Assembly (NCBI GenBank): GCA_937906975.1
Contig: CALCUN010000150.1
Coordinates: 1-20,863 of the forward strand
From: an uncultured Bacteroidales bacterium
Lineage (GTDB): Bacteria > Bacteroidota > Bacteroidia > Bacteroidales > P3
DNA length: 20,863 nt
Reading direction: 5' to 3'
The position numbers and the translations under genes are program-made. Shown here in pieces: positions 1,775 through 18,493 of the stretch (positions are counted from its first letter, which is position 1; every line of letters begins with the position of its first letter). Under the pieces are notes generated by a model that was given only the letters and a program-made list of their open reading frames with translations, was not told the origin of the DNA and ran no database searches.

Positions 1775-2401
1775 TCAAACTTTTAACGTTTTTACTACAC
1801 ATGCAGGATTACCACATACAACACTATACGATGGAACATCTTTAGAAACAACAGAGCCCGCACCAACAACAGAACCCTCGCCAATTGTAACACCTTTTAA
1901 TATAATACATCTAGCCCCAATAAATACATTATTTTTAATAACAATTGGAGATTTTTTTGTTTTCTCATTCTTATTAATCAATCTATCTTTCCAATTAATT
2001 GGATGGGAATCTGTATCGCTTATTAAACAACCTGAACCTATTAACACATTATCTCCTATTGTAATAGATGTTGTAGCACATAGTGTTGAACCAGATATTC
2101 CAACATTGTTTCCTATTATTATTTTACTTCCATGTGCTGCTATATTAAAAACACAAGGCTGTATCAAACCTATAGAATTAGATTTTATTTTATTATTACA
2201 TTTAAAATTGTCTCCTATTACTAATTTACCATTTTTGGTGCCTAATAAGAGACGATTAAAAAAATTATTTTTTATAATTTTTACCCCCCCCGAAAATTTA
2301 TTAGTGTAATTTATAGAAACTCCACTATATAGTTGATAATATAAAGAGGGAATAATTGTAAATAACAAGTTGTATATTAATTTTAAATACTTCTTCATCA
2401 T
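1775..2401 (-). CDS. Left-handed beta-helix (hexapeptide) O-acyltransferase
   Basis: A 208-residue acyltransferase of the hexapeptide-repeat family, most likely an acetyl-CoA-dependent O-acetyltransferase acting on the polysaccharide or its lipid-linked precursor. Repeats of the [IV]-G-x-x type run from about residue 60 to 190 (IGDN, IGNN, IGDN, IGSG, IKNN, IGAR, IGEG), with the usual catalytic His in SDTDSHPINW (H133). The C-terminal GNPACVVK is the standard closing turn. Residues 1-25 are hydrophobic and may touch the membrane. Codons 37-40 (TCG GGG GGG GTA) form a G8 tract; any single-base slip there would truncate the protein near residue 40, so expression may be phase variable. Locally very AT-rich (12 of 60 G+C at 2221-2280), suggesting horizontal acquisition. 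It lies between manC and the GT2 gene with gaps of 9 and 1 bases. Confidence 0.88.
   Translation of the reverse strand: MMKKYLKLIYNLLFTIIPSLYYQLYSGVSINYTNKFSGGVKIIKNNFFNRLLLGTKNGKLVIGDNFKCNNKIKSNSIGLIQPCVFNIAAHGSKIIIGNNVGISGSTLCATTSITIGDNVLIGSGCLISDTDSHPINWKDRLINKNEKTKKSPIVIKNNVFIGARCIILKGVTIGEGSVVGAGSVVSKDVPSYSVVCGNPACVVKTLKV
2284..2291 (-). repeat. G8 homopolymer (coding strand) in acyltransferase gene
   Basis: Eight consecutive C on the plus strand, read as G8 in the minus-strand acyltransferase gene across codons Ser37-Gly-Gly-Val40. The gene is in frame at G8. Such a tract is unexpected in DNA this AT-rich and is a plausible slipped-strand mispairing site. Confidence 0.85.
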
Positions 2402-2410
2402 GTTCTTTAT

Positions 2411-3448
2411 TTATGTATTAGCTTCATTAAACTCTTTTATACGTTGTTCTTCGCTACGTTTACATATTAGCAATTGTCCATTCTTTTCAGACACTATATA
2501 GCCATTTAATCCTTGTAATACAACTTTCTTTGCATCTTCCGTATGAACAACACAATCATTACATTCAAAAAATCTCACATTTCCTACAGAGGCATTTTCA
2601 TACTCGTCTTTCTGCAATTTATCATATAACGAAGCCCAATTACCTAAATCACTCCATCCAAAATCTGCTGGATGTGTAAAGACTTTATTTTCTTTTGATG
2701 CCGGTTCCATAACCGCAAAGTCAATGGAAATCTTTTCGCATTGTGGAAATATTTCTTTCACATTACCTGTTGTCATAATATTGTCCATATCTCCTGCAAT
2801 GTTTTGTTTGTATTTTGTAATAGATCGTACTATTGTATTTACATTCCATATAAATATACCTGCATTCCACAAGTAATTACCTTTGTCTAAATACGTCTGT
2901 GCAGTTTGTAAATCTGGTTTTTCTTTAAATTCTTTTACTTTACAAATTTTACCTTTTATATTATCGGAAGTTTCTACATAACCATAGCCTGTTTCTGGTC
3001 GTGAAGGTTTTATTCCAATAGTAACAATAGCATCTTTATCTGTCGTAAAATCAAGTGCATTGTTTATTACTCTACGAAATTCTTCAACATTCATTACAAC
3101 AGCATCGGCAGGCGTTACAACTACATTTGCATTTGGATTTTCTTTTCGTATGTTCCAACACGCCAATGCTATACAAGGTGCAGTATTACGAGCAGCCGGC
3201 TCTGCCAATATATGATTTTCTGGAATTGTTGGCAATTGCTTACGTACTATATCTACATAACTTTCATTTGTTACGATCCAAAAATTTTCATCATTACATA
3301 CGCCTTTGAATCTATCTACCGTAAGTTGTATCAGCGTTCTTCCACAACCAAGTATATCTATAAATTGCTTTGGATATTCGGGTGTACTCAATGGCCAAAA
3401 TCTACTGCCTACACCCCCCGCCATTATTACTACATGGGTATTGTTCAT
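2411..3448 (-). CDS. manC: Mannose-1-phosphate guanylyltransferase (short form)
   Basis: Makes GDP-D-mannose from GTP and mannose-1-phosphate, the first committed step to GDP-L-fucose via Gmd and Fcl nearby. The 345-residue protein carries the pyrophosphorylase signature MAGGVGSRFWPLS (9-21) followed by YPKQF, the EPAARNTAPCIAL segment, and the sugar-binding KEFKEKPD and LWNAGIFIW motifs. It ends at about 345 residues, so it lacks the C-terminal mannose-6-phosphate isomerase domain of the long ManC/AlgA form; the isomerase must be encoded elsewhere. The G6 run at 3414-3419 encodes the essential Gly-Gly-Val of the signature and is short enough to be ordinary. It starts 19 bases after fcl ends, consistent with one transcript. 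Confidence 0.95.
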   Translation of the reverse strand: MNNTHVVIMAGGVGSRFWPLSTPEYPKQFIDILGCGRTLIQLTVDRFKGVCNDENFWIVTNESYVDIVRKQLPTIPENHILAEPAARNTAPCIALACWNIRKENPNANVVVTPADAVVMNVEEFRRVINNALDFTTDKDAIVTIGIKPSRPETGYGYVETSDNIKGKICKVKEFKEKPDLQTAQTYLDKGNYLWNAGIFIWNVNTIVRSITKYKQNIAGDMDNIMTTGNVKEIFPQCEKISIDFAVMEPASKENKVFTHPADFGWSDLGNWASLYDKLQKDEYENASVGNVRFFECNDCVVHTEDAKKVVLQGLNGYIVSEKNGQLLICKRSEEQRIKEFNEANT

Positions 3449-3467
3449 AATTGTTGTTTTATCATTA

Positions 3468-4409
3468 TTATCTTTCTGCTCTCATTGGATTGTTAAGAAA
3501 ATCTGCATAACTTAAACGTATTCCATCTTCAAGTTCCACTTTATATTTCCAGCCAAGACTTTCTGCTTTACTTACATCTAATAATTTTCTAGGTGTTCCG
3601 TTCGGACGACTTGTATCCCATTTTATTTTACCTTCGTATCCTACTATCTTTGCAACTAACTCCGTCAAATCTTTTATACTTATCTCCTTTCCTGTTCCTG
3701 CATTAACAGTTTCATTTCCAGTGTAATTATTCATCAAAAACACACAAAGATTTGCCAAATCATCAACATATAAAAATTCTCTCAATGGGCTACCATCTCC
3801 CCAACAAGTTACTTCATTGAGCCCATTCTCTTTTGCTTCATGAAAACGACGTATCAACGCAGGTAATACATGAGAATGTTCAGGGTGATAATTGTCATTA
3901 GGACCATAAAGATTTGTCGGCATAAGACTTATAAAATCTGTACCATATTGAACATTCAAATATTCGCAATATTTCAAACCACTTATTTTTGCAAGAGCGT
4001 ATGCTTCATTAGTTTTTTCTAACTCTCCTGTAAGTAGATAACTTTCTTTTATTGGTTGTGGCGCCATACGAGGATAAATACAACTACTACCTAAGAATTC
4101 AAGTTTTTTACAACCATTACGCCATGCAGCATTAATGACATTCATTTCCAAAATCATATTGTCGTACATAAAATCTGCCAATGACGACTGATTTGCAACA
4201 ATACCACCTACTTTTGCCGCTGCAAAAAAAACATACTCTGGTTTTTCAGTTTCAAAGAAATCATTTACCGCTTGTTGATTACACAAATCTAATTCCTTAT
4301 GTGTACGAGTTATTATATCATTATATCCTTGACGTTGTAATTCTCTAACTATAGCCGAGCCAACCATTCCTTGATGACCTGCAACATATATTTTACTATT
4401 CTTTTCCAT
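3468..4409 (-). CDS. fcl: GDP-L-fucose synthase (epimerase/reductase)
   Basis: Converts GDP-4-keto-6-deoxy-mannose to GDP-L-fucose with NADPH. This is a 313-residue extended SDR with the family-specific nucleotide loop GHQGMVGSAI (11-20), in which His replaces the usual second Gly region, the AAAKVGGI segment (63-70), and the catalytic GSSCIYP (107-113) with YxxxK as YALAK (Y137, K141). C110 in GSSC corresponds to the conserved active-site Cys of the family. NLYGPNDNY and REFLYVDDLA are also typical. The length matches characterised Fcl proteins. The partner dehydratase Gmd lies three genes upstream, with an apparent fucose-import module between them, which is not the usual adjacent gmd-fcl order. 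Confidence 0.96.
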   Translation of the reverse strand: MEKNSKIYVAGHQGMVGSAIVRELQRQGYNDIITRTHKELDLCNQQAVNDFFETEKPEYVFFAAAKVGGIVANQSSLADFMYDNMILEMNVINAAWRNGCKKLEFLGSSCIYPRMAPQPIKESYLLTGELEKTNEAYALAKISGLKYCEYLNVQYGTDFISLMPTNLYGPNDNYHPEHSHVLPALIRRFHEAKENGLNEVTCWGDGSPLREFLYVDDLANLCVFLMNNYTGNETVNAGTGKEISIKDLTELVAKIVGYEGKIKWDTSRPNGTPRKLLDVSKAESLGWKYKVELEDGIRLSYADFLNNPMRAER

Positions 4410-4421
4410 AATAAATTCTAT

Positions 4422-4745
4422 TTAAAATATTCTTTCCATTATTTGCCATTTCTCATCACTACGAGCATCTGCTCTACAACCTTGGAATTGCGACACGTAA
4501 GCTTCCCATTCTGCTTGTCGAGGCAATTTTGACAATAATGCCATATCACGCTCCCAATCAAAATCATCTACTGTATCACATATCATAAATAGAATATTTC
4601 CTTTACAATAAATCTGCATATCAAGTATTCCTACTCTACGTTGTCCTTCTATAATTTCTGGCCATACATTAGTATGTACTTCTACATACTTAGAAATCAT
4701 CTCCTCATCATTAACAAGTTGAAGTGTTTGGCAATATCGTTTCAT
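4422..4745 (-). CDS. L-rhamnose/L-fucose mutarotase family protein (COG3254)
   Basis: A 107-residue single-domain protein of the L-rhamnose mutarotase (DUF718) family, which interconverts alpha and beta anomers of a deoxyhexose. Family residues visible are Y20, H24 and the WPE triplet (28-30) of the segment HTNVWPEI, then a Trp-rich C-terminal part with the W-E-x-Y pattern (80-83). Family members are about 100-110 residues, so it is complete. Its ATG overlaps the stop of the fucP-like gene by 4 bases, implying translational coupling. That context favours L-fucose as substrate, presenting the right anomer of imported sugar to the kinase. It is not related to FucU, the RbsD-type fucose mutarotase. 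Substrate choice is inference; rhamnose cannot be excluded from sequence. Confidence 0.82.
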   Translation of the reverse strand: MKRYCQTLQLVNDEEMISKYVEVHTNVWPEIIEGQRRVGILDMQIYCKGNILFMICDTVDDFDWERDMALLSKLPRQAEWEAYVSQFQGCRADARSDEKWQIMERIF

Positions 4746-6037
4746 ATTCTATTTCTACTAATATTTAAAGAGTATATCATAATTACAACGAACGAAAGCA
4801 ATGGAATAATAAAACTAATATTTATTGAAGACATTCCAAGCAATCTATTTCCATCTATTATAACTGCTTGTAAAGGTGGCAATAAACTTCCTCCTAAAAT
4901 TGCCATTATAAGTCCTGCTGCTCCTAATTTCGCATCATCACCTACATCATTGAGTGCTATTCCGTATATAGTTGGAAACATTAAACTCATACACGCTGAA
5001 ACTGCAACTAAACTATATAATCCCAAACGGCCTCCAACAAAAATAACACCTAACATTAAACAAATAGCAAGACATGAAAATAAAGTCAGTAATTTTGAAG
5101 CCTTAATATATTTCATCAGCCACGTACAAATAAACCTACTTACACAAAAAGCAATCATTGCAATTATATTGTACTTTTGAGAAGTAACCTCTGCATCAAG
5201 TTCAGACATTCCCTCTTTCATAAAGACAGAAGTACCATATTGTATTATAAATGTCCAACACATTATCTGGACTCCTACATAAAAGAATTGAGTTACAACT
5301 CCATACCTATAACGTTTATTAGACCACAACCTTTTTACTATTTTAGTAATACTTTCAGAAACATTTTCTTTGGTATCACGAGATTTTGGTAAAAACACCG
5401 CGAATAAAACAAACATAACAATTAACACAATACCTATTACTATATATGGAGCAGATAACACTGATAAATCAGCTTCTTTTATCATCTCAAATTGAGATTC
5501 ACTAAGTATCGCTCGTTCACTTGTACTTAAAGGATTTAATTTATTTTGTATAAAATTCATTGCAACATACATACCCAAAAGAGAGCCTATTGGGTTAAAT
5601 GCTTGTGCAAGATTTAATCGTCTTGTAGCATTTTCTGAATTTCCCATAGACAATATGTAAGGATTTGCCGATGTCTCCAAAAACGATAATCCACAAGTGA
5701 GTATAAAATAAGATAAGAGGAAAGGATAATAACTGCCAATCAATTGAGCAGGTAAAAACATCAATGATCCTACTGCATATAACCCCAAACCCACTAAAAG
5801 CCCCACTTTATAACTAAATTTACGTATAAACAATGCTGCTGGTAATGCCATACAAAAATAACCTCCATAGAATGCAACTTGCACTAACGTTCCATCAGTA
5901 ACACTCATTCTAAATATTTTAGAAAAAGCCTTTACCATTGGATTTGTTATATCATTAGCAAATCCCCACAAAGCAAAGCAAATTGTTACAAGTACAAAAG
6001 CTAATAAATACTTCTTTTCTATTGTTTTTGATTTCAT
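4742..6037 (-). CDS. fucP: L-fucose:H+ symporter, major facilitator superfamily
   Basis: An inner-membrane transporter of 431 residues with about 12 hydrophobic segments, close to E. coli FucP in length. GFANDITNPMVKAFSKIF (25-42) follows TM1 and is characteristic of Bacteroidetes FucP. LSFLETSANPYIL (118-130) holds the Glu (E121) matching the essential acidic residue of FucP, and Asn125. No fucose isomerase, fuculokinase or aldolase gene is nearby, so this copy appears to serve anabolism: bringing L-fucose in for activation and incorporation into surface glycan rather than for growth. It sits between the mutarotase (4-base overlap) and the NTase-kinase fusion (5-base gap), a tight three-gene unit. 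Exact sugar specificity is inferred from family and context. Confidence 0.88.
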   Translation of the reverse strand: MKSKTIEKKYLLAFVLVTICFALWGFANDITNPMVKAFSKIFRMSVTDGTLVQVAFYGGYFCMALPAALFIRKFSYKVGLLVGLGLYAVGSLMFLPAQLIGSYYPFLLSYFILTCGLSFLETSANPYILSMGNSENATRRLNLAQAFNPIGSLLGMYVAMNFIQNKLNPLSTSERAILSESQFEMIKEADLSVLSAPYIVIGIVLIVMFVLFAVFLPKSRDTKENVSESITKIVKRLWSNKRYRYGVVTQFFYVGVQIMCWTFIIQYGTSVFMKEGMSELDAEVTSQKYNIIAMIAFCVSRFICTWLMKYIKASKLLTLFSCLAICLMLGVIFVGGRLGLYSLVAVSACMSLMFPTIYGIALNDVGDDAKLGAAGLIMAILGGSLLPPLQAVIIDGNRLLGMSSINISFIIPLLSFVVIMIYSLNISRNRI

Positions 6038-6042
6038 TTCTA

Positions 6043-7209
6043 TTACGAATTATTGCGACGTATTTTCAACACTATTGCTTCTGGATATTTATCTACAAAT
6101 TTCATTGCATCTTCTACAACACAAGCCAAATATCCACCACCACCTGCACCTGGCATTTTATAAGCCATTACTACATCCTTATATTTGTCAATATAGCTTT
6201 GTACACTTCCTTGAATCATAGCAGGGAACATGGCTATTTGAGCATTAAAACTATCTTGATATGATTGAGCGAACCCTTTCAAATCCAATGTATGAATAGA
6301 CTTCCAACAACGAACAGCAGCATCTGCCAAAGCAGCAACCTTTTCTCTCGTAATATTACTTCCTTCTACTACTGAACAATCAACACAACGAGGTTCCATA
6401 GGGATCATTATCAAATGCTGTTCTAACCATGATAGGATAGATTCTTCATTACAAGTTTCAATAGTCTCGGGCCAAAATTTACTATCATAATAATGTCTCG
6501 ATAAACCAGGAACACATATACCAATAGCATCTTGTGCTCCACTAACTATACCGTCACAACGTTCTGGATTATTCTCATAGCAAAAAATCAAGCGTGCTAA
6601 TGTTTCTGGGTTCATATCTGGCAATTGATTCGGCCATATACTACGAATAACATTACGCGTAGATGTACTAAGTCCACAACGTTCTCTTATTTCAAAAGTT
6701 GGTTCCAACGATATTGTTATTGCCCACCCTGGAAAATATTTACTTACATAAGGTTGATCTATCCATGTACCAGCAATATCTAATCTTGTCGGTATTTTAC
6801 AAAAAGTTTTCTTTAAATCAGTGCTACTACGAGCTTCCAATCCTTTATATGGTGTACGATCAAGAACAATATATTCTATACCACATTCTTTACAAAGTTT
6901 GCGTTTACTTTCGCTGTCTCCATCGCTATTCACAACCAAAATATCAGGTTTAACTATATCAAGCGTAGGTATAAAATCTAATATTCCACTACCTGCATTA
7001 ATATATGCCTCTTTTACATAGCGAATACTCTTAACCATAAAAAGACGTTCTTCCTCGCTATATGTAGTATTATGATGTTTATAGTTCAATATTGTTTTAT
7101 CACTACCTATACCCACATATAGTTCACCATATTCTGCTGCTTGTCTAAAAAATTCTATATGCCCAGAATGCAACAAATCATAACAACCACTAACAAAAAC
7201 TTTTTTCAT
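6043..7209 (-). CDS. Fusion: HxGH nucleotidyltransferase + GHMP sugar kinase (putative fucose activation enzyme)
   Basis: A 388-residue two-domain protein. Residues 1-135 are a cytidylyltransferase-like Rossmann domain: SGCYDLLHSGH (7-17) contains the HxGH motif, SDGDSESK (95-102) follows, and RSST (127-130) corresponds to the second nucleotide-binding motif. Residues 137-388 are a GHMP kinase: PTRLDIAGTWID (140-151) is motif 1, SGAQDAIG (223-230) stands where the phosphate-binding motif 2 is expected but lacks its usual Gly-Leu-Ser-Ser form, and MPGAGGGGY (352-360) is motif 3. The kinase part would phosphorylate a free sugar at C1 and the other domain would add a nucleotide. Next to FucP and a mutarotase, L-fucose is the likeliest substrate. 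It is unrelated in layout to Fkp (about 950 residues, kinase at the C-terminus with a different pyrophosphorylase). HxGH enzymes normally use CTP or ATP, so the nucleotide made is uncertain. Domain calls are firm, substrate is inference. Confidence 0.8.
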   Translation of the reverse strand: MKKVFVSGCYDLLHSGHIEFFRQAAEYGELYVGIGSDKTILNYKHHNTTYSEEERLFMVKSIRYVKEAYINAGSGILDFIPTLDIVKPDILVVNSDGDSESKRKLCKECGIEYIVLDRTPYKGLEARSSTDLKKTFCKIPTRLDIAGTWIDQPYVSKYFPGWAITISLEPTFEIRERCGLSTSTRNVIRSIWPNQLPDMNPETLARLIFCYENNPERCDGIVSGAQDAIGICVPGLSRHYYDSKFWPETIETCNEESILSWLEQHLIMIPMEPRCVDCSVVEGSNITREKVAALADAAVRCWKSIHTLDLKGFAQSYQDSFNAQIAMFPAMIQGSVQSYIDKYKDVVMAYKMPGAGGGGYLACVVEDAMKFVDKYPEAIVLKIRRNNS

Positions 7210-7231
7210 ATAAGTGTTAATGAAATAATTA

Positions 7232-8335
7232 CTACTTCACAATACCTTTTTCTAAATATTCTGCAAGATTCATACGTACTTTTGCCGCTGCACCTTCTGA
7301 AGCAATCTTTGCCATATCATGCTCTACCATTATCTTAACAAGTTCTTCAAAAGTTGTTTTAGCAGGATTCCAACCTAATTTAGCCCTTGCTTTAGTTGGA
7401 TCTCCCCACAAATTAACAACATCTGTAGGACGATAAAAATCTTCTGATACAGCAACAAGAGTTTTACCAATAAGATGCTCCGGTCCAGAAACACATATTC
7501 CTTTTTCCTCCATATCTTCACCTTCAAACTTCAATTCAATTCCTGCATATTTAAAAGCTAAATAAGTAAAGTCTCTCACAGAGTGTTGAACACCAGTTGC
7601 TATAACAAAATCTTCAGGTTTATCATTTTGAAGAATCAACCACATACATTCCACATAATCTTTTGCATACCCCCAATCTCTTAATGAAGAAAGGTTTCCT
7701 AAATACAAACAATCTTGCAAACCTTGTGCAATACGTGCAGCAGCAAGAGTGATTTTTCGTGTTACGAACGTTTCCCCTCTACGTTCAGACTCATGATTAA
7801 ATAATATTCCTGAGCAACAGAACATATTATATGCCTCACGATATTCCTTTACTATCCAATATCCATATAATTTTGCTACTGCATATGGTGAATATGGGTG
7901 AAATGGAGTATTTTCATTTTGAGGTACTTCTTCCACTTTACCATAAAGTTCAGATGTAGAAGCCTGATATATGCGACATGTATTCTCTAATCCGCAAGCT
8001 CGCACTGCCTCCAATACTCTAAGAACTCCCGTTGCATCAATATCAGCTGTAAATTCAGGAGAATCAAAACTAACCTGAACATGACTTTGTGCTGCAAGAT
8101 TATATATTTCATAAGGTTTTACCATTCCTATAACCTTTACCAACGACATAGAATCTCCCAAATCACCATAATGAAGATGAAAGTGTGGATGCCCCTCAAG
8201 ATGAGCAATACGCTCACGATAATCCACCGAACTACGACGTATTATACCATGAACATCATATCCTTTTTCTATTAAAAATTCGCTCAAATAACTACCATCT
8301 TGACCGGTAACTCCTGTAATAAGTGCTTTTTTCAT
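7232..8335 (-). CDS. gmd: GDP-mannose 4,6-dehydratase
   Basis: Dehydrates GDP-D-mannose to GDP-4-keto-6-deoxy-D-mannose, the substrate of Fcl in this cluster. The 367-residue extended SDR shows [11 protein letters not shown] (7-17), IIRRSS (31-36) for NADP binding, the catalytic triad region ASTSELYG (T127, S128, E129) and YAVAK (Y151, K155). [15 protein letters not shown] and [10 protein letters not shown] are also Gmd-specific. Length is as expected. It is the first gene after the 369-base non-coding gap, so if an internal promoter exists there, Gmd would head a separate fucose transcript. Its stop lies 22 bases before the start of the NTase-kinase fusion. Confidence 0.97.
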
Positions 8336-8425
8336 AATATATTAATTTTAGTCTATTAAATATGTATTTAACATCAAATACATTAGAATCATTTTTAAAT
8401 TACTATAATAAATCTATCAGTAATT

Positions 8426-8444
8426 AAAAAATAAGAAGACTTAT
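8426..8444 (-). terminator. Weak terminator-like hairpin
   Basis: Read on the minus strand, a 5-bp stem ATAAG/CTTAT with a 4-base TCTT loop is followed directly by a run of T (plus-strand A at 8426-8430). The stem is short and AT-rich, so it is at best a weak intrinsic terminator for transcripts coming from the GT4 gene, and could be chance in this composition. Confidence 0.2.
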
Positions 8445-8526
8445 CACTAGCAAATAAACACGACTAATAATAACGTTTTTTCTCCATTAATTTAAATAGA
8501 TTTATATTTGTATATGATTTCTATCC

Positions 8527-8561
8527 TATAGATATAACTATAAATAGGGTTCCTATCTATA
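8527..8561. repeat. 8-bp inverted repeat with nested dyad in intergenic region
   Basis: TATAGATA (8527-8534) and TATCTATA (8554-8561) are perfect inverted copies separated by 19 bases. Inside the spacer, ATAGG (8544-8548) and CCTAT (8552-8556) form a competing smaller dyad that shares bases with the right arm. It could be an operator or an RNA structure, but in AT-rich DNA an 8-bp match is not decisive. Confidence 0.35.
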
Positions 8562-8704
8562 TTTTCACAAATCCTTTTACTAACATTCTATGAAACTTCT
8601 GTGTAGAAAAGCTCAGATTCTCCCCTGATGTAGCAAAAAAGTTATTTATCAATCTTGAAGACTAAGTATTAAAACGTATAATATTTTTGTGATTTTTTAC
8701 GAAA

Positions 8705-11058: not shown

Positions 11059-12079
11059 TGTAATTTCTTAAAATATAACTTCTTAATGATTTTATATATT
11101 CTCTCTCTAAGATTGACTTTTCTTCATATCTTACCCATTTTCCATCATTTATAGAATAATAATGAGTAGAATATTCCAAAGTTGCTGTTCCAAAATGCAA
11201 ACACTGAAACTCTATTAAATAAAATCCTTTTCCATCATAAGCAACGTCTATTGAAAGTACAGGCACATTTAATGTATCATATATTGATTTTGAAAAATCT
11301 AAAATTCCATTTGGCAGTTCTGGTTCATAATTTAATCTCCCGCCACCACTAGCCCTAAAATCATTATCACGATTTTGGCGGCTAAGAATATAATATTTAT
11401 CAGCAAATACAAGTACCTTAAAATCTCCACTTAAATTAGGAATAAAATTCTGTATAATAAATTTATTCCTATGATTTGAATGAATAGGTTTATTAATTTT
11501 ACCTAACATTATCAATACTTTTTGTTTAAAAGAATTGATTTTATTACAATTTTCTTTTTCAATAAATTGTAGAGATTGTTCTTTATTTCTGAATAAAGCA
11601 ACGCCATTACTACCTGCTCCTTCAGCAGTTTTAAATACACAGGGATAATTAACGTTTTCTATGTTATCTATAAATTCTTCATTGCACCCATATATTTTTG
11701 AGTGAATACCAGTATTAATATCAGCTAATTCAATATCTCGAAGCATTTCCATAAGGGCTTTATTATGGTGAGCTCTCATATACCTCCATTCTGGGATCAA
11801 AATTGCTCCTTTTCTTGAGAGTACATATAACATATCTTCCATATATCCTTTATAAATTAGTCCAGGATCTTCGGAAGATGTATAAATATAATATTGACCG
11901 AAATAATTTTTTGATATATCAATATCTGAATATTTAATAAAATTCAATTCAACTCCTTCTTCTTGAGCATATTTTTGTAATTTATTCAAATCCATTGTAA
12001 GAATATGCTTATTTTTGTAGATTTCAATTGAAGACTGAAACCAACCTCTATAATTTGTAAGTACGTTTATTTTTATCAT
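11051..12079 (-). CDS. ATP-grasp ligase of unknown substrate
   Basis: A 342-residue cytoplasmic protein with an ATP-grasp fold. Visible are FKTAEGAGSNGV (149-160), with K150 and the flexible glycine loop for ATP phosphates, the segment IIQNFIPNLSGDFKVLVF (208-225), the arginine-bearing SRQNRDNDFRASGGG (233-247), and the metal-binding end SIDVAYDGKGFYLIEFQ (D278, E290). The pattern resembles RimK-type amino-acid ligases. The N-terminal 120 residues match no domain I recognise. ATP-grasp enzymes join a carboxylate to an amine, thiol or hydroxyl, so in this setting it might attach an amino acid to a uronic acid such as the predicted GalNAcA, or to the glycan. It lies between the CapA-like gene and wzy. 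Fold is well supported; role is inference. Confidence 0.75.
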   Translation of the reverse strand: MIKINVLTNYRGWFQSSIEIYKNKHILTMDLNKLQKYAQEEGVELNFIKYSDIDISKNYFGQYYIYTSSEDPGLIYKGYMEDMLYVLSRKGAILIPEWRYMRAHHNKALMEMLRDIELADINTGIHSKIYGCNEEFIDNIENVNYPCVFKTAEGAGSNGVALFRNKEQSLQFIEKENCNKINSFKQKVLIMLGKINKPIHSNHRNKFIIQNFIPNLSGDFKVLVFADKYYILSRQNRDNDFRASGGGRLNYEPELPNGILDFSKSIYDTLNVPVLSIDVAYDGKGFYLIEFQCLHFGTATLEYSTHYYSINDGKWVRYEEKSILEREYIKSLRSYILRNYNE

Positions 12080-12089
12080 ATAGTTAAAG

Positions 12090-13193
12090 CTATTTTTTTA
12101 ACAATTCAAACATTACATCTTTATGTGCTTCGCAACGAAACAAATTTAATATAACATTTTTCTTATATCTAGTAAGAAATGAAGGTAATAAACCTTTTGC
12201 TTTCAAGATTTTTAGATATTTATTACTGTATGGTTCAAGAAATTGTAAGAAACTCTTATTTTTTACCATCGCTAAAAAATGTTCATATAAAAGTCTATCA
12301 TCAGCAATAACAGAATTTAGTTTATCTATATGTTTATAAAATTCATCATTATCGTTAGTAAACGATACTATAGGATTTTCAGCACATTGTATATATGGTA
12401 ATAATTGATAAGTATTACTATCTTTGTTCAGATTGAGTTCTACTGCATAACCAGTATTCCACAAATTATCCTTTGGATTGTTATCAAAGCAGAAATTGCC
12501 TAATCCATAAAATATATGCTTGCCCAAATATTCTTCATAACCACTATAGCAATGTTGATGATGATTGACTACAACATCGGCACCTTGTTCAATAAAAAAA
12601 CGGTAGGTTTCTTTCATTCGTGGCGATGGAAGTTGATAGTGCTCAGTACCTCCATGTACTATGACTAATACATAATCTGAGTTTTTCTTAGCTTCTGCTA
12701 TTTTATGTATATTAGTAATCAAATTAAGGGGAGCTGAACCTCCTGAAGTTTTTGTAGCTATTGTCCATTCATTCTCACAAATATTTATAACAGCTAGTTT
12801 TTCACCAGCAATTTCTTTGTAAAGTATTTTTTCAGCTTCTTCAATGTTAATTCCACCACCTAGATAATCTATATTATTTTCATTACATGCTCTTAATGTA
12901 TCTAAAACACCTTTATCGCCAAAATCGTAGAAATGATTATTTGCCAAAGTTACACAATCAAAACCTGCATACTTGACTGCTTTCATAGCATTTGAATGAC
13001 ATCTTAAGTTTGGACCTGTTTTATCTATTGGTTTAGCCTCTCCTTCTACTATAGGTGATTCAAAATTAATTATAGAGTAGTCTACTTGAGAAGTCATACT
13101 TTTAACTTCATCAAAATAACTATAATTGCTGGATTCTGTCATATTTTTCACTCTGTTACGAGGAACAAAATCTCCTGTTACTAAAATTTTCAT
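12090..13193 (-). CDS. CapA-family (PGA_cap) metallophosphatase-like protein
   Basis: A 367-residue protein of the CapA/PgsA calcineurin-like phosphoesterase family, whose founding members act in poly-gamma-glutamate capsule synthesis. The metal-site motifs are in order: GD (7-8), NFESPIV (43-49), the family signature ANNHFYDFGDKG (84-95), HGGTEHY (180-186), NHHQHCYSGYE (210-220) and YGLGNF (229-234). Unlike many CapA proteins it starts straight into the first core strand (MKILVTGDF), with no signal peptide or membrane anchor, so it looks cytoplasmic. The 130 or so C-terminal residues are not assignable. It overlaps wzx by 4 bases and precedes the ATP-grasp gene by 10, a pairing that hints at a shared amino-acid-linked modification. 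PgsB, PgsC and PgsE are absent, so a polyglutamate capsule is not indicated. Confidence 0.85.
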   Translation of the reverse strand: MKILVTGDFVPRNRVKNMTESSNYSYFDEVKSMTSQVDYSIINFESPIVEGEAKPIDKTGPNLRCHSNAMKAVKYAGFDCVTLANNHFYDFGDKGVLDTLRACNENNIDYLGGGINIEEAEKILYKEIAGEKLAVINICENEWTIATKTSGGSAPLNLITNIHKIAEAKKNSDYVLVIVHGGTEHYQLPSPRMKETYRFFIEQGADVVVNHHQHCYSGYEEYLGKHIFYGLGNFCFDNNPKDNLWNTGYAVELNLNKDSNTYQLLPYIQCAENPIVSFTNDNDEFYKHIDKLNSVIADDRLLYEHFLAMVKNKSFLQFLEPYSNKYLKILKAKGLLPSFLTRYKKNVILNLFRCEAHKDVMFELLKK

Positions 13194-14656
13194 TTTCTTT
13201 TAATCGTTTTTAATGCTGTTTGTTTTAATGAATTTATTGTAGAACGATCACCGGGAAATAAAAGATAGAGGCTGAGAAAATATACAGTCACACAAAGCAA
13301 TATCCAGACAAATGACATCACTATACCATCACTAACACGTAACAGTGAATAGCCAACAATTGCCATAATCAACGAACTGATAAATTGAGGTATAACATTT
13401 GCCACCATTTTCCATGGAGATTGTTTTATTATTATATATACAGCAATCATGTTTACCAATACCAATTCCAATCGAATTAATGAGCGTGTTATATATAATG
13501 CTTCAAAGCCATATTGTCCAGAAATTATAACAGCAGGAATAAGAACTAACACATGAAGTATTTGAACTATTACCGATATGCGAGGCTTGCCAATAGCAGG
13601 ATATACGGGCGAACAAAAACGTGCAAAAACAATCGTTATAGCTTCCATCAACCCCCACAGTCCAAGTATAGGTACGGCCTCTACCCATTGTTCGCCAAGC
13701 ATCACATTAGTTATCAAATCTTGAAAAACAAATATTCCTACACCAAGAGGGATCAAAATCAAACCTGTCATCTTTTGAAACTTTAGCAACACTCTTCTCA
13801 TTTCTGGTAGATCGTTTTGCAAACGTGCCAGAGATGGCATTACCACCGGCAAAACTATAGCAGTAATAAGAGTAACTATATATCCTACTATGGAAATAGA
13901 TGTACGATATAGTCCCAAACTATAAGCATCTAAATATCGGCTTATAAAGAAAATGTCAGCATAAGCTGTAGCCCATACTAACAAAGAATCGACAAGGCTC
14001 CAACTGCAAAACGAAAACATCTCTTTAAGTATAGCAAAACTATAAAATCTGCGAGGTTTCCAATTGGATTTAATTAAAAAGAAAATAGCATTAGCTAAAT
14101 TCATTGCTAAACTTCCTAATACTAAAGCCCAATAGTTACGTAACCAAAATGCTAAAGGTATTGTTATAAACATTGGAATTAATATAGATACTAAACGTGT
14201 CCAAAAAAGAGTTTTGAAGTCAAAATCACGTTTCATTAACGCCATTTGAATGCTACAAAAACCTGTAAGAGGTATGCCGGCACACGATACCATCAACACC
14301 AATCCCAATCCGGGACTACCTACCAACACAGCCAATGGTTGGCAAAATATGGCAATGATGGCCCACAATGCAAAACTCATCACCAAATTTGACCAAAATG
14401 CCACATTGGTATGTTGTTCACGCTCCTCATCATTTTTAAATTCTTTTTGTATGAGGTATTTTTGGAATCCAGCATCGGCAAAAATATCTGCTAAAGCAAT
14501 GATGATACTAAAAGTAGCCACCACTCCGTATGCTTCAGGTGTAAGCAAACGAGCCATAACCATAGCGGTGATAGGAGTAATCAACTTCGACAATATCTCT
14601 GCAAATGCAGACCACTTTGTAGCGTTTACAATTTTCTTATTTAAGTTTTCTGACAT
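13190..14656 (-). CDS. wzx: Polysaccharide repeat-unit flippase (Wzx, MOP superfamily)
   Basis: A 488-residue integral membrane protein with about 14 hydrophobic segments, the standard length and topology for Wzx/PST transporters. It moves undecaprenyl-PP-linked repeat units across the inner membrane. The N-terminus, with NATKWSAFAEILSKLITPI and then VMARLLTPEAYGVVATFSII, is characteristic of the polysaccharide_synt family, as is the YLDAYSLGLY segment in the middle. Its presence with Wzy shows a Wzx/Wzy-dependent export route rather than an ABC transporter. The stop overlaps the CapA-like gene start (ATGA). The 5' third is less AT-rich than the remainder (30 of 60 G+C at 14281-14340), another sign of mosaic ancestry. 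Confidence 0.93.
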   Translation of the reverse strand: MSENLNKKIVNATKWSAFAEILSKLITPITAMVMARLLTPEAYGVVATFSIIIALADIFADAGFQKYLIQKEFKNDEEREQHTNVAFWSNLVMSFALWAIIAIFCQPLAVLVGSPGLGLVLMVSCAGIPLTGFCSIQMALMKRDFDFKTLFWTRLVSILIPMFITIPLAFWLRNYWALVLGSLAMNLANAIFFLIKSNWKPRRFYSFAILKEMFSFCSWSLVDSLLVWATAYADIFFISRYLDAYSLGLYRTSISIVGYIVTLITAIVLPVVMPSLARLQNDLPEMRRVLLKFQKMTGLILIPLGVGIFVFQDLITNVMLGEQWVEAVPILGLWGLMEAITIVFARFCSPVYPAIGKPRISVIVQILHVLVLIPAVIISGQYGFEALYITRSLIRLELVLVNMIAVYIIIKQSPWKMVANVIPQFISSLIMAIVGYSLLRVSDGIVMSFVWILLCVTVYFLSLYLLFPGDRSTINSLKQTALKTIKRK

Positions 14657-14680
14657 GAAATTAAAAATTACTTTCCAATT

Positions 14681-15708
14681 TTATCCAATAAGAAATTTAC
14701 CAATTTTGGTTTTAAGTAAGAGTAGCGATAGTAAGTAAGAAATAGGCAAAACCAATGTAAAACCTAACCATGGCAACCAATATGGTCCTACAATTGATGC
14801 AAAATCGGTATTATAATACAATGCTTTTAGCAAAAACTGATGTGTCAGATATATACCAAAACAACACGAAGCCAAACTAATAGTAAATTTGCTCAATTGT
14901 TTGTGTTGTGTGTAATACACCATTGTAATATAAAATGTAAGTGTACCAATTGTCGCATAAATCAATTGGCAAGTACTGCGTGCCGAACCGGTCAACAATC
15001 TATATAATCGCAAATCTTGTTCGCCAATAACAATGCTTTCTTTCAAAGAGCGAAACAGTACAAATACGACTATGAATATCATCCAACTTATTATAAGGCT
15101 TTTAGGAGTGATAAGTTCCTTTATACGTTCTGAATGTTTATATATCACATATCCAAGATAGAAATAGAAAATATAGTTAGTGGTAGCACCTAATTGAAAT
15201 GGCAACGACAATGGCCAGAACAGATTTATCAATATAAAAAATAGTAGTTTCCAACCATCGCCAATCTTTATTTTATTAAGTATCACCACTCCAACAAAAC
15301 ACCAAAACAGCATGGGTAAGTACCACATATGTCCGCAACCATTCACTACACTATACAAAAAGTTGCCAATTCCTTCATATTCATAAAAAATAAAGAAATA
15401 AGGGATACTAAATATTATACTTGGCAATATCAATCTTTGTAACTTACTGATAATCACCCCCCCGATTTGCATAGCGTTATTTTTTGAAAGGCAAACAAAT
15501 AACCCGATATAAAAACGAATGCCTCTAATGTAAACGCAAATGCAGTTCGAGCAATCCATTTATATGTAGGAATATCTATACAACCTTCCGGTTTTGCCCA
15601 TCCGCCTTGAAAACAAGTAAACGCATGCATGAACACAATAAGTACAGCTAATATAGTTCTCATCAAAGTTACTTCATCAAGTTTTATTATTTTCATTTGT
15701 GATTCCAT
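14681..15708 (-). pseudogene. Acyltransferase family 3, frameshifted at a G7 tract (probably phase-off)
   Basis: Two overlapping frames together make one integral-membrane acyltransferase of the OafA/acyltransferase-3 family, which O-acylates surface sugars. The upstream piece (15454-15708, 84 residues) has the family N-terminus with R17 and H28 (RTILAVLIVFMHA) and EAFVFISGYLFAF, then runs through TCG GGG GGG into TGA. The downstream piece, in another frame, continues with VIISKLQRLILPSIIFSIP and about eight more hydrophobic segments to 14681. Adding one G to the G7 tract at 15457-15463 joins them as SGGVIISK, giving 342 residues, normal for the family. The downstream piece's own ATG (15557-15559) encodes sequence unlike the family and is not a real start. 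Either a switchable gene in its off state or a homopolymer sequencing error. M5 is an alternative start. Confidence 0.88.
15457..15463 (-). repeat. G7 tract at the acyltransferase-3 frameshift
   Basis: Seven G on the coding strand, followed immediately by TGA in the upstream frame. At G8 the reading becomes TCG GGG GGG GTG, the same Ser/Met-Gly-Gly-Val arrangement seen at the in-frame G8 tracts of the two hexapeptide acyltransferases. It is the single change needed to restore the full-length protein. Confidence 0.85.
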
Positions 15709-15743
15709 TATTTTTTGTTCTATTCAAAGAAAAATATTCTAAT

Positions 15744-15824
15744 CTACAAATTTCTTTCGTTCAAAATTCGTTCATGTTCTTTTATTTGTTCTTCTGTGAA
15801 ACGAAATTGAGTCTTGCTGAAAAA
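15744..15824 (-). pseudogene. 3' remnant of a hexapeptide acyltransferase gene
   Basis: In the 161-base gap between the KAS III gene and the acyltransferase-3 gene, a 26-codon open stretch ends in TAG (15744-15746). It reads QFRFTEEQIKEHERILNER near its end. This closely matches the C-terminal part of the acyltransferase at 17855-18493, which has GFRFTPEEIIEHEKQQYDES just after its last hexapeptide turn. An upstream in-frame stop, no start codon and no beta-helix repeats show it is only the tail of a lost gene. The loss probably occurred by deletion or gene replacement at the boundary of the acyl cassette. It lies about 36 bases before the acyltransferase-3 start. Confidence 0.65.
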
Positions 15825-15869
15825 AATATATAATTAAAGTTATTTTTCATGCAAACAAAATATAGTTCA

Positions 15870-16874
15870 TTAAAATTTCAATATTGTACCACCCCAACTC
15901 AATCCGACTCCAAATCCACAAGTCATAACAGTCATGCCGGATTTGATTTTTCCATCCTTTATAGAATCTTTCAGTGCAATAAATATAGTGGAAGATACAG
16001 TATTTCCAACATTTGTTAAATCAATATAAAATTTATCCTTAGGTAATCCACATACTTTACGTATTGTATTTAGCATGAACTTATTTGCTTGATGAAAAAC
16101 AAAATAATCTATATTCTCTTTAGCCAAAGAGCTTTTTTCTAATAATTGATTCATCATAGTTGGTACAGTTTCTAATGTAAAATTGAATATAGCACCACCA
16201 TTCATATAAAGATAATCATCTCTTCTTATATGACCTTCAGAATCTCTAGACTCAGCCCCTGTCGCATTCTTTTCACGAGAAGCTCCGGTTTTTAAAATTA
16301 AATGTTCTGCTCCTTTACCATCGGTTCCCAAAACAAAATCACCTATTTCAGCAAACCCTTCTGAAGAAATAAGACATGCAGCTGCTCCATCTCCAAAAAT
16401 CGAACGATTGCTTTTGTCATCGGGATGCAAGTATTTATTATATGTTTCAGCTGTAAGCAATAATACATTGTTTGCTATTCCACTTTGAACAAGACCTTTT
16501 GCCAATGCCAACCCATATATACAACCTGAACATCCAAGATTATAATCAAATGCTCCTGATGTCGTTGGTATTCCCAAACGATTTTGTAAAACACATGCAG
16601 ACGAAGGTAAAAAATAATCCGGACTTTGTGTACATAGCATCAAAAAATCAATAGATTCGGGCACAATATTATATTCTTGAAAAAGATTTCTTGCTGCTAA
16701 TTCTGCTAAATCTCCTGCTGTTTCGGTCGGGGTTGCGATATGACGAGAATTCACACCAACCTTATCTGCTACTTTTTCTACACTCCATTCAGGAAATTCC
16801 TTTACCAGTTCTTCATTAGTCACAATTTGCGAAGGCAAATAATAACTAATTGCTTTTATAAATGCTTTTTTCAT
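15870..16874 (-). CDS. 3-oxoacyl-ACP synthase III (KAS III/FabH-like), cluster-dedicated
   Basis: A 334-residue thiolase-fold condensing enzyme. KAS III joins an acyl-CoA primer, typically acetyl-CoA, to malonyl-ACP, making a 3-oxoacyl-ACP. The catalytic triad is intact: Cys115 in NLGCSGCIYG, His261 in FHQANKFML, and Asn291 in NVGNTVSST. The C-terminal GFGVGLSWGG is also standard. Its ATG overlaps the stop of the SDR gene by 4 bases and the ACP gene is next upstream, so it belongs to a small acyl-ACP cassette rather than to housekeeping lipid synthesis. With one KAS III and no elongating KAS, dehydratase or enoyl reductase, a short product such as acetoacetyl- or 3-hydroxybutyryl-ACP is the simplest prediction. 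Confidence 0.92.
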   Translation of the reverse strand: MKKAFIKAISYYLPSQIVTNEELVKEFPEWSVEKVADKVGVNSRHIATPTETAGDLAELAARNLFQEYNIVPESIDFLMLCTQSPDYFLPSSACVLQNRLGIPTTSGAFDYNLGCSGCIYGLALAKGLVQSGIANNVLLLTAETYNKYLHPDDKSNRSIFGDGAAACLISSEGFAEIGDFVLGTDGKGAEHLILKTGASREKNATGAESRDSEGHIRRDDYLYMNGGAIFNFTLETVPTMMNQLLEKSSLAKENIDYFVFHQANKFMLNTIRKVCGLPKDKFYIDLTNVGNTVSSTIFIALKDSIKDGKIKSGMTVMTCGFGVGLSWGGTILKF

Positions 16875-17623
16875 AATTTATTTCCCCCCCCTGTTATATC
16901 AATACAACTATTTGTCATCCATGAAGAGGCATCTGATAAAAGATACACTGCTAGATTTGCAACATCTTCTGGTTTGCCATATCGTTTTAAAGGATAATTC
17001 TTTTCTGACTCTTTTAGTTGCTCAATAGTTATTTCGTTCTGCAAAATTAAATCAGTCCAAACCATAGCCGGAGAAATACAATTAACTCTAATTCCGCGTG
17101 GTGATAATTCTAATGCAAGACACTTTGAATATGCAATTAAAGCTCCTTTCGATGCACTATAAATGGAGTTTCCCATACTGGGATAATCTACAGATTTTGA
17201 AGCAATGAAAACTATAGATGAATTTTTATTTATTTTCTTCTGTCTTAGTAACGCAGCTTGCAATAATACAGCTCCATAAAAATTGGCTTTCATCACCATA
17301 TCTACATCCTTTTCTGTTACCATTTTAGCAGGCATACGATGCCCTATGCCTGCACAATGAACAACACCATCTAATTGTGGAACTTCTGTGGATAGAGTAT
17401 CTATATCACTTTGCTGTGATAAATCGGCATCAATAATTAAATTTTCATCACCTTGCATCATCGATAAAGTATGCTGTAATTTTTCTTTAGAGCGACCACT
17501 AATAATAACTTTTCCGCTCATTTTAGATACCGTAACGGCAATTGATTGACCTATTCCTGATGATGCACCGGTAACCAATATTGTTTTTCCTGCTAACGAA
17601 AAGGGATTAAAAGTATATTCCAT
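16871..17623 (-). CDS. SDR oxidoreductase, FabG-like 3-oxoacyl-ACP reductase
   Basis: A 250-residue classical short-chain dehydrogenase. The cofactor loop is TGASSGIGQS (18-27) with an Arg in SGRSKEK favouring NADPH, the catalytic residues are Ser in IASKSVDYPS (about 142-144), Y155 and K159 of YSASK, and the C-terminus ends in the family ITGGG. Between an ACP gene (1-base stop/start overlap) and a KAS III gene (4-base overlap), the likeliest reaction is reduction of the 3-oxoacyl-ACP to 3-hydroxyacyl-ACP. A G8 tract lies seven codons from the end. Loss of one G would add about ten residues past the normal stop; gain of one G would end the protein nearly normally. Slippage would thus mainly alter coupling to the KAS III gene. 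A sugar-nucleotide reductase is a less likely alternative. Confidence 0.85.
   Translation of the reverse strand: MEYTFNPFSLAGKTILVTGASSGIGQSIAVTVSKMSGKVIISGRSKEKLQHTLSMMQGDENLIIDADLSQQSDIDTLSTEVPQLDGVVHCAGIGHRMPAKMVTEKDVDMVMKANFYGAVLLQAALLRQKKINKNSSIVFIASKSVDYPSMGNSIYSASKGALIAYSKCLALELSPRGIRVNCISPAMVWTDLILQNEITIEQLKESEKNYPLKRYGKPEDVANLAVYLLSDASSWMTNSCIDITGGGNKL
16884..16891 (-). repeat. G8 tract near the 3' end of the SDR gene
   Basis: Eight G on the coding strand encoding Gly-Gly-Gly of ITGGGNKL, ten bases before the overlapping ATG of the KAS III gene. In frame as read. Confidence 0.85.
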
Positions 17624-17850
17624 TACTTACTATTTATCAGATTGTATACATCTTCTACAGTTATACATTTTTTCAATTCTTCACCTGAGATAACTTTATC
17701 ATAACTAACTTTTGCCATAGCTATAAGCATCATACCTACAAGTGAACTCCATTCTTCCAAATCATGGAATTTAGTTTCAAATTGAATTTCGTTAGGATCT
17801 GTATCCTCAAACTGTTCAGCAAAATTTGCTAAGAATTCTATTTTATTCAT
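17623..17850 (-). CDS. Acyl carrier protein, cluster-dedicated
   Basis: A 75-residue acidic, helical protein of ACP/PCP size. It carries the growing acyl chain as a thioester on 4'-phosphopantetheine. The attachment serine is best placed at S36 in EEWSSLVGMMLI, where SSL replaces the common DSL. The preceding segment (FEDTDPNEIQFETKFHDL) and the C-terminal TVEDVYNLI match helix I/loop and helix IV of the family. The missing Asp before the Ser marks it as a specialised carrier, not the fatty-acid ACP. It starts 4 bases after the hexapeptide acyltransferase gene ends and its stop shares one base with the SDR start. Confidence 0.85.
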   Translation of the reverse strand: MNKIEFLANFAEQFEDTDPNEIQFETKFHDLEEWSSLVGMMLIAMAKVSYDKVISGEELKKCITVEDVYNLINSK

Positions 17851-17854
17851 GATA

Positions 17855-18493
17855 TTAAATTTTTGTTACTTGTTTTATTTCTTTTATTCTGTTTAAAAAA
17901 TATTTTTCATAGTTCTTTGAAAGTAAATCATACGGAAGACGTTCACTCTCATCATATTGTTGTTTTTCATGTTCTATTATTTCTTCAGGAGTAAATCTAA
18001 AACCTATTACTTTACATGGATTTCCTATAACTACAGCATACGGAGGAATGTTATTCCTTACAACACTTCCTCCCCCAACTTCACATCCTCTACCCAGTCT
18101 TACTCCTGATAGTAAAATAACATGATTTCCTATCCACACATCTTCTTCCACAACAATGTCTTTATCCATCTCTTTATTTATATCCATCTTATCTTTAACT
18201 TTATCATCAATTTGCTTGAGGTTCAAGCCTACAATAGACATATGGTTTCCTGTAATTGCAGTAAATCCAAACGCAGCTCCCGAATTCCTCTTAAAAATCA
18301 CCTTAGCTCTCGTATTCATAATTACCCCCCCCATATCAATATTTGTATTTTCTTCCATATACAAATTATTGGGATTGTAAACTTTTACAGACATTTCTAT
18401 TCGAGAACTTTTTGTAATATGAGGATAATTTGTTTTTTTCCAAAAAGAAAGGATGTGTTTTACAAACGATTTTAATCCTATGATAAATTTCAT
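17855..18493 (-). CDS. Hexapeptide-repeat acyltransferase heading the acyl cassette
   Basis: A 212-residue left-handed beta-helix transferase. Hexapeptide turns are visible around 50-70 and again at 115-160 (VEEDVWIGNHVILLSGVRLGRGCEVGGG), with a candidate catalytic His in ITGNHMSIVG (H84) and the closing IGNPCKVIGFRFT. The last 45 residues form a charged helical tail. As the gene immediately before a dedicated ACP, it is the leading candidate to transfer the acyl group made by the KAS III/SDR pair onto a sugar amine or hydroxyl, possibly from ACP rather than CoA. That is inference; an acetyl-CoA enzyme is equally compatible with the fold. Codons 54-57 (ATG GGG GGG GTA) form a G8 tract, and slippage would truncate the protein near residue 57. 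Confidence 0.85.
   Translation of the reverse strand: MKFIIGLKSFVKHILSFWKKTNYPHITKSSRIEMSVKVYNPNNLYMEENTNIDMGGVIMNTRAKVIFKRNSGAAFGFTAITGNHMSIVGLNLKQIDDKVKDKMDINKEMDKDIVVEEDVWIGNHVILLSGVRLGRGCEVGGGSVVRNNIPPYAVVIGNPCKVIGFRFTPEEIIEHEKQQYDESERLPYDLLSKNYEKYFLNRIKEIKQVTKI
18325..18332 (-). repeat. G8 tract in the cassette acyltransferase gene
   Basis: Eight G on the coding strand spanning Met54-Gly-Gly-Val57, in frame as read. It occupies the same xxG GGG GGG GTx codon pattern as the tract in the acyltransferase gene at 1775-2401. Confidence 0.85.

Follow-up and report, generated by a model that had tools for sequence, protein, structure and literature searches.

The window analyzed here, a 20,863-nucleotide stretch of a contig from an uncultured Bacteroidales bacterium (CALCUN010000150.1, assembly GCA_937906975.1), carries a polysaccharide locus in which four poly-G tracts fall in acyl-pathway genes: an acyltransferase-3 (AT3) gene, a short-chain dehydrogenase/reductase (SDR) gene, and two genes for hexapeptide-repeat acyltransferases (hex1 and hex2). 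The best reading of these tracts, and one we consider probable, is that they mark contingency loci for surface acylation that switch by slipped-strand mispairing. An earlier, sequence-only reading of this DNA had proposed such phase variation for all four genes; the proposal fares best for AT3, which is split exactly at its tract, and fairly for hex1 and hex2, and it does not hold as a simple switch for the SDR. The genes and tracts are as follows (G8 denotes a run of eight Gs, and so on).

1775..2401, minus strand: hex1, hexapeptide-repeat acyltransferase, in frame (open frame and family match)
2284..2291, minus strand: G8 tract, codons 37-40 of the 208 of hex1 (run count, frame analysis)
14681..15463, minus strand: C-terminal piece of AT3, 260 amino acids counted from the tract (PF01757, E 1.2e-17)
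15454..15708, minus strand: N-terminal piece of AT3, 84 amino acids, with the R-X10-H signature and a stop right after the tract (Pfam Acyl_transf_3, E 8.6e-7, 28.7 bits)
15457..15463, minus strand: G7 tract of AT3, where the gene halves join in different frames (run count, Pfam)
15870..16874, minus strand: beta-ketoacyl-acyl carrier protein (ACP) synthase III-like protein (NF006829, 273.6 bits, cut-off 249)
16871..17623, minus strand: SDR family reductase, FabG-like, with 4 bases of its end shared with the start of the following gene (family match)
16884..16891, minus strand: G8 tract in the C-terminal Gly-Gly-Gly of the SDR, codons 245-247 of 250 (run count; recurs in relatives)
17623..17850, minus strand: ACP-like protein, 75 amino acids (weak NCBIfam match, E 2.2e-4, far under the cut-off; no Pfam match)
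17855..18493, minus strand: hex2, hexapeptide-repeat acyltransferase, in frame (open frame and Pfam)
18325..18332, minus strand: G8 tract, codons 54-57 of the 212 of hex2 (run count, frame analysis)

All four tracts are C runs on the plus strand and G runs of 8, 7, 8 and 8 on the coding strand, and a run count places them exactly where the sequence-only reading had put them; apart from these four, no run of G or C in the whole 20,863-nt window reaches a length of 7. Coding-strand G runs of lengths 1 to 6 number 2515, 639, 74, 16, 5 and 1, followed by a single run of 7 and three of 8. The same reading had taken G and C to make up about one-sixth of the bases each, which is rough given a coding-strand G content of 19.8%, and had judged three runs of G8 or longer (G8+) to be beyond chance, which our counts bear out. 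When synonymous codons were permuted among the window's genes 5000 times, with the tracts' own GGG codons retained in the pool, the shuffles contained a mean of 0.075 G8+ runs and a maximum of 2, and three were reached in 0/5000. Sixty Bacteroidales genomes contain 810 G8+ runs in 207 Mb (3.9 per Mb), or ~0.08 expected per window; the Poisson probability of three or more is 8.5e-5 at this mean density and 0.009 when the genome with the highest density of such runs is used instead; these values are optimistic because the window was selected for looking odd. As a set, the three G8 runs are thus longer than chance would give, and the AT3 G7 taken by itself is unexceptional (mean 0.23 runs of G7 or longer per codon shuffle). 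Nine weak tandem arrays were also detected in the window, none of which coincides with any tract.

The AT3 gene provides the clearest case. Its N-terminal frame stops just past the tract and its C-terminal part is open in another frame, with positions 3-60 of the Pfam Acyl_transf_3 model falling on the N-terminal piece (28.7 bits against a Pfam cut-off of 31) and positions 72-325 on the C-terminal piece. At this tract, the two frames that are not open reach a stop within 9 codons, so a one-unit change would stop the product. Since the N-terminal piece carries the R-X10-H pattern, which the excerpted text of PMC9558356 presents as essential to AT3 enzymes, the C-terminal piece should be inactive by itself, and AT3 is apparently in the off state in this assembly.

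Relatives of AT3 occur both with and without a break at this position. A protein search with the C-terminal piece as query found 438 relatives, and the counts given here come from the 120 listed. The top-scoring relative, P0001, which served as the reference, is full length and 92% identical over the C-terminal piece, and the N-terminus is normal in 105 of the 120. Ten of the remaining 15 break at or just past the tract site, which corresponds to residues 83-85 of P0001: eight of the 15 start at P0001 residues 84-95, and P0015 and P0033 have an N-terminus like the window's out-of-frame one, running up to the tract site. The other five start at residues 27, 44, 118, 128 and 128. The close relatives P0002 (93%) and P0003 (90%) are both among the short ones. 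Another locus (L030) holds a different type of AT3, which a G8 tract divides at the Pfam boundary where the window's AT3 is also split. In an AlphaFold model of P0001 (20 sequences in the alignment, mean pLDDT 87), the tract site is a loop between predicted helices 60-78 and 85-108, a location where extra glycines could presumably be borne; in 108 parsed relatives, the longest glycine run at this site is 0 in 9, 1 in 51, 2 in 21, 3 in 24, 4 in 1 and 5 in 2.

The two hexapeptide acyltransferase genes are open with their G8 tracts in frame. Since both alternative frames of each gene end within 9 codons of the tract, a slip in either would be expected to delete the hexapeptide repeats matched by Pfam. 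An intact hex1 relative with 99% identity (P0121) is present among the 120 listed of 3110 found. The sequence-only reading had described one codon pattern with an in-frame G8 in all three acyltransferase genes, a description that fits hex1 and hex2 but not AT3, where the run is a G7 and the frames are split. It had also placed every tract in a gene for acyl decoration; all four tracts of this AT-rich locus do lie within acyl-pathway genes, but the SDR is no acyltransferase and lies between the ACP-like protein and the ketoacyl-ACP synthase.

In the mechanism we propose, the locus would make a capsule or exopolysaccharide whose acyl decorations are governed by contingency genes. The ~8-base tracts of hex1, hex2 and AT3 would gain or lose a base through slipped-strand mispairing during replication, and the resulting frame change would end translation within a few codons, turning each enzyme on or off per cell and reversibly; in this assembly, hex1 and hex2 would be read through and AT3 would be off. 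Slipped-strand contingency would explain the split of AT3, the recurrent breaks at one loop in its relatives, and the in-frame G8 of hex1 and hex2. We infer the slippage itself, its reversibility and rate, the independence of the switches, and their effect on the surface from these observations. The SDR needs a second idea, either a switch of its tail or of coupling, or a hypermutable end that is tolerated.

Past the SDR tract, the three frames yield tails of GGGNKL, GGK, or 14 residues, counted from the Gly pair. The tract lies at codons 245-247 of 250 and the SDR domain match ends at residue 246, so every frame keeps the SDR domain, and a one-unit change would affect no more than the tail and the boundary to the following gene, without stopping the product. 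The role of this tract is thus not that of an on/off switch; a slip there would change the last residues and perhaps the coupling of translation to the ketoacyl-ACP synthase. Among the 120 listed SDR proteins (6240 found), 92 have GG-x-x-L-like tails, 27 have shorter ones (17 GGGQ, 4 GGGK, 2 GGGE and 4 others), and one (P0354) continues for 32 residues, and these three protein tail shapes may correspond to three frames of one tract. A scan of viral contigs for the SDR gave 25 pattern matches with no relative among them. In three loci (L008, L016 and L021, near 9973), no stop interrupts the ketoacyl-synthase frame when it is followed upstream across the SDR tract, such that a change of tract length there could fuse the SDR with the synthase.

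SDR relatives were found in 66 loci, of which 64 could be parsed (L037 and L038 could not). The longest G run at the SDR motif is two-peaked: 2 in 29/64, 3-6 in 18, 7 in 2, 8 in 12 and 9 in 3, so that G7-G9 is found in 17/64. On a tree of 64 rows (63 loci plus the window), 18 of which carry the tract, the tract label changes 14 times, with at least 11 of these changes forced by well-supported branches. Shuffled labels need a mean of 15.8 changes, and 90/500 shuffles were as low as the observed 14. Since the changes are hardly fewer than under shuffled labels, the SDR tract appears to be gained and lost rapidly, and it is present in rows labelled Prevotellaceae, Bacteroidaceae and Tannerellaceae. 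One pair of loci that are 95.6% identical across 15 kb (L051 and L052) has G8 in one SDR and G9 in the other. Differences between relatives in tract length or frame are thus seen in the DNA and protein tails of the SDR, and for AT3 in protein length only. A bolder possibility, which we hold as tentative and rather unlikely, is that across Bacteroidales the SDR end is a repeatedly re-evolved poly-G rheostat that swaps the tail and resets coupling to the synthase without killing either gene, with acyl-donor supply and three acyl-transfer steps varying independently. If so, donor supply and transfer steps would together give a combinatorial surface code.

The alternative that survives best, although we consider it unlikely, is that the tracts are hypermutable but unselected: GGG codons would gather at places that tolerate glycine (a loop, a C-terminal tail, the stretch preceding the hexapeptide repeats), and slippage would be a non-adaptive side effect. 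Consistent with this, the AT3 site is a poorly conserved loop, the SDR tail falls outside the domain match, 29/64 SDR relatives lack a G run longer than 2, and the G8+ runs of relatives' genomes are also found between genes and in unrelated genes. Codon choice argues against it, in that Gly-Gly is encoded as GGGGGG at 17/64 SDR sites (27%) and in just 46/2273 pairs (2%) elsewhere (binomial 9e-15; the comparison set comprises 1280 other long open frames in the same loci, with shadow frames kept and C-terminal Gly-Gly frames excluded). So does the confinement of all four window tracts to the acyl pathway. Across 80 loci, moreover, G8+ runs occur in 3/28 AT3 open reading frames (ORFs) and 13/1119 others (Fisher P = 0.006, with small numbers), when AT3 ORFs were recognized with a home-made profile and 60 SDR-like ORFs (14 with G8+) were set aside. 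Since the 13 others include an AT3 missed by the profile (L030) and three ORFs overlapping the SDR tract (in L008, L016 and L021), this contrast is if anything understated.

Less likely still is that AT3 is a decaying pseudogene, or that its G7 reflects a faulty assembly with an indel in the homopolymer, with the other tracts being due to chance. The window is a single assembly, homopolymers are error-prone, and the short P0002 and P0003 may be contig-edge pieces; nevertheless, neither AT3 half carries another break, the remaining listed ORFs of the window look intact, and breaks recur at this site in independent relatives (P0015, P0033 and L030). Finally, a fixed ratio of two products could arise from unchanged DNA if the G run caused transcriptional slippage or programmed frameshifting. 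This is improbable, even though RNA polymerase can slip on homopolymer runs and the stop of the SDR lies across the start of the gene after it, as happens in translationally coupled pairs, because close relatives differ in tract length or tail frame and because the tract is not required, relatives without the run keeping the gene intact.

Several observations weigh against slipped-strand contingency as the explanation for the whole set. The tract lengths in the window come from one assembly of one strain of the species. DNA of the AT3 subfamily was not found in our scans, so AT3 variation is read from protein lengths, and certain short AT3 proteins may be contig-edge pieces. In genome scans with AT3, 1/251, 2/349, 1/393 and 0/48 genomes matched at E 1e-15, 1e-40, 1e-60 and 1e-80, respectively; these matches are distant (33% identity for that of the 1e-15 search), and the stretches fetched for them hold no coding-strand run of G6 or longer. 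No AT3 relative was detectable with the window's AT3 pieces in the 80 loci, and none was found in a scan of viral contigs. For hex1 and hex2, the case is one of chance statistics and frame logic, since the DNA relatives found are either without the tract or too distant. The sequence-only reading had held that fixed tract lengths or orthologues encoding Gly-Gly with mixed codons would speak against phase variation. For the SDR, the outcome is divided between the 29 relatives without a run longer than 2 and the 17 with G7-G9, the tract having come and gone repeatedly; for hex2, the outcome tends against phase variation, as 0/13 aligned DNA sites of relatives (26-56% identity) carry the tract. 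No hex1 DNA site aligned in the 80 loci, the Gly pair is missing from the sole hex1 match among 393 genomes (52% identity), and just one of the 120 listed hex1 relatives (P0178) begins at the tract site. The SDR of L052 also has a 1-base indel outside its tract, making an assembly error there possible. No acylation gene was recognized, without a family scan, among the G8+ runs read in ten relatives' genomes. The 80 loci together hold 39 G8+ runs compared to 24.9 expected from base content, which is no striking overall excess, and since many of these runs are the SDR tract we dropped general G8+ richness of the loci as a candidate signal.

The length distribution of G runs shows a break, clearest in loci below 43% G+C. 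A Pfam scan of 10 hand-picked tract-bearing ORFs outside the SDR site (from L001 to L056, with L035, L053 and L063 unscanned and L007 a near-copy of L004) identified four AT3, one hexapeptide protein, one GDSL acylhydrolase, one FdtA, one pyruvyl transferase and two glycosyltransferases. We also considered whether TAA after G8+ runs is a selected off-frame stop. TAA follows 21/67 G8+ runs, in a sample that includes 30 loci picked for G9 runs, compared to ~2% of G3-G5, 1/129 G6 and 2/24 G7 runs; examples are positions 2284 and 18325 of the window and L011 4018, L017 7523, L033 9018, L049 3449, L056 8450 and L070 5062. In the 60 genomes, TAA follows 86/810 G8+ runs and the mirror pattern occurs at 23/810. 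This candidate was dropped because the pattern also occurs with opposite-strand genes and between genes.

Four tracts in individual genes were also noted. At L020 8179, a G9 tract apparently divides an FdtA/WxcM-like gene. At L029 13245, a G8 lies at the very start of the GDSL acylhydrolase ORF, the likely start codon of which is in another frame. At L100 1501, in genome G005, which also holds L031, an in-frame G11 lies in an ORF resembling an O-antigen polymerase or ligase (without a family scan). At L111 1699, a distant AT3-like ORF has an in-frame 8-C run on the coding strand (TTACCCCCCCC).

The recognizable genes of the window are all on the minus strand and form a gut-type Bacteroidales polysaccharide locus, judged by relatives. 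It includes a GDP-mannose-pyrophosphorylase-like gene, a fucose permease, a flippase, a Wzy-like polymerase, glycosyltransferases and a UDP-sugar dehydrogenase, together with the run of acyl genes for a hexapeptide acyltransferase, the ACP-like protein, the SDR, the ketoacyl-ACP synthase III-like protein and AT3. Two more, at 3468-4409 and 7232-8335, resemble genes for GDP-fucose synthesis in their sequence. Between 4422 and 7209, inside the locus, lie fucP (the fucose permease), a rhaM-family mutarotase and a cytidylyltransferase-like protein with a short C-terminal fucokinase match, suggesting salvage of external fucose. The nearest match to the window's ketoacyl-ACP synthase in the species-genome collection is just 77% identical, so the source species is probably absent from that collection.

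Surface variation in Bacteroidales is known through DNA inversion, which switches whole capsules on or off. The set of poly-G tracts looks like a way of varying the cell surface for which this order has not been known: if the reading is correct, slippage would form a second layer, adjusting the acyl groups of a given capsule, and could explain escape from phages and antibodies within a single capsule type. Poly-G switching is easily overlooked, since an assembly gives each tract a single length and a gene in the off state is annotated by gene callers as a shorter protein. The SDR end and the AT3 loop are ready sites for examining existing metagenome reads.

Phase-variable acylation of surface sugars has close parallels elsewhere. 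NeuO is a hexapeptide-repeat enzyme, and neuO switches via heptanucleotide repeats. The available portions of PMC3046976 on Escherichia coli K1 NeuO and of PMC9558356 on Haemophilus influenzae oafA, which encodes an AT3, likewise concern phase-variable enzymes that O-acetylate surface sugars; oafA uses tetranucleotide repeats, according to the title of a reference in the latter. The window differs from both in that its repeats are homopolymeric G and that several acylation genes of a single locus carry them.

Within the same order, the Bacteroides invertible promoters likewise confer capsule phase variation but act by DNA inversion (excerpts of PMC11868660 and PMC3090145). In its excerpted part, the review PMC11868660 mentions Bacteroides in connection with inversion and with phase variation of unspecified kind, but not with slippage. 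In the window, there was no convincing inverted-repeat pair among the 25 longest of 89; these are imperfect (72-86% complementary, with one short pair at 94%) and lie 509-14037 nt apart, and the operon start is probably outside the window. Closest in setting is the Bacteroides fragilis polysaccharide locus PSI/9, where, in the excerpt of PMC3090145, an additional base in a C run puts an acetyltransferase-related gene out of frame and the authors suggest slipped-strand variation. That run is of 4 C, short for slippage, and the excerpt gives a suggestion for one gene and no set of tracts. We found no description of poly-G contingency genes in Bacteroidales among the papers listed from the open-licence PMC literature, a search in which subscription papers were mostly, and bioRxiv preprints wholly, outside scope; the slippage mechanism is classical, and it is its use in Bacteroidales that is undescribed within that literature. 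Another close likeness is to the poly-G contingency loci of Campylobacter jejuni, such as cgtB (excerpts of PMC6437147 and PMC6321876), where a G tract also lies within a surface-glycan gene, a length change also breaks the frame, and several loci per genome are also involved. C. jejuni belongs to a different phylum and the window is known from its sequence alone; moreover, cgtB encodes a glycosyltransferase, whereas the tracts of the window are confined to acyl-pathway genes.

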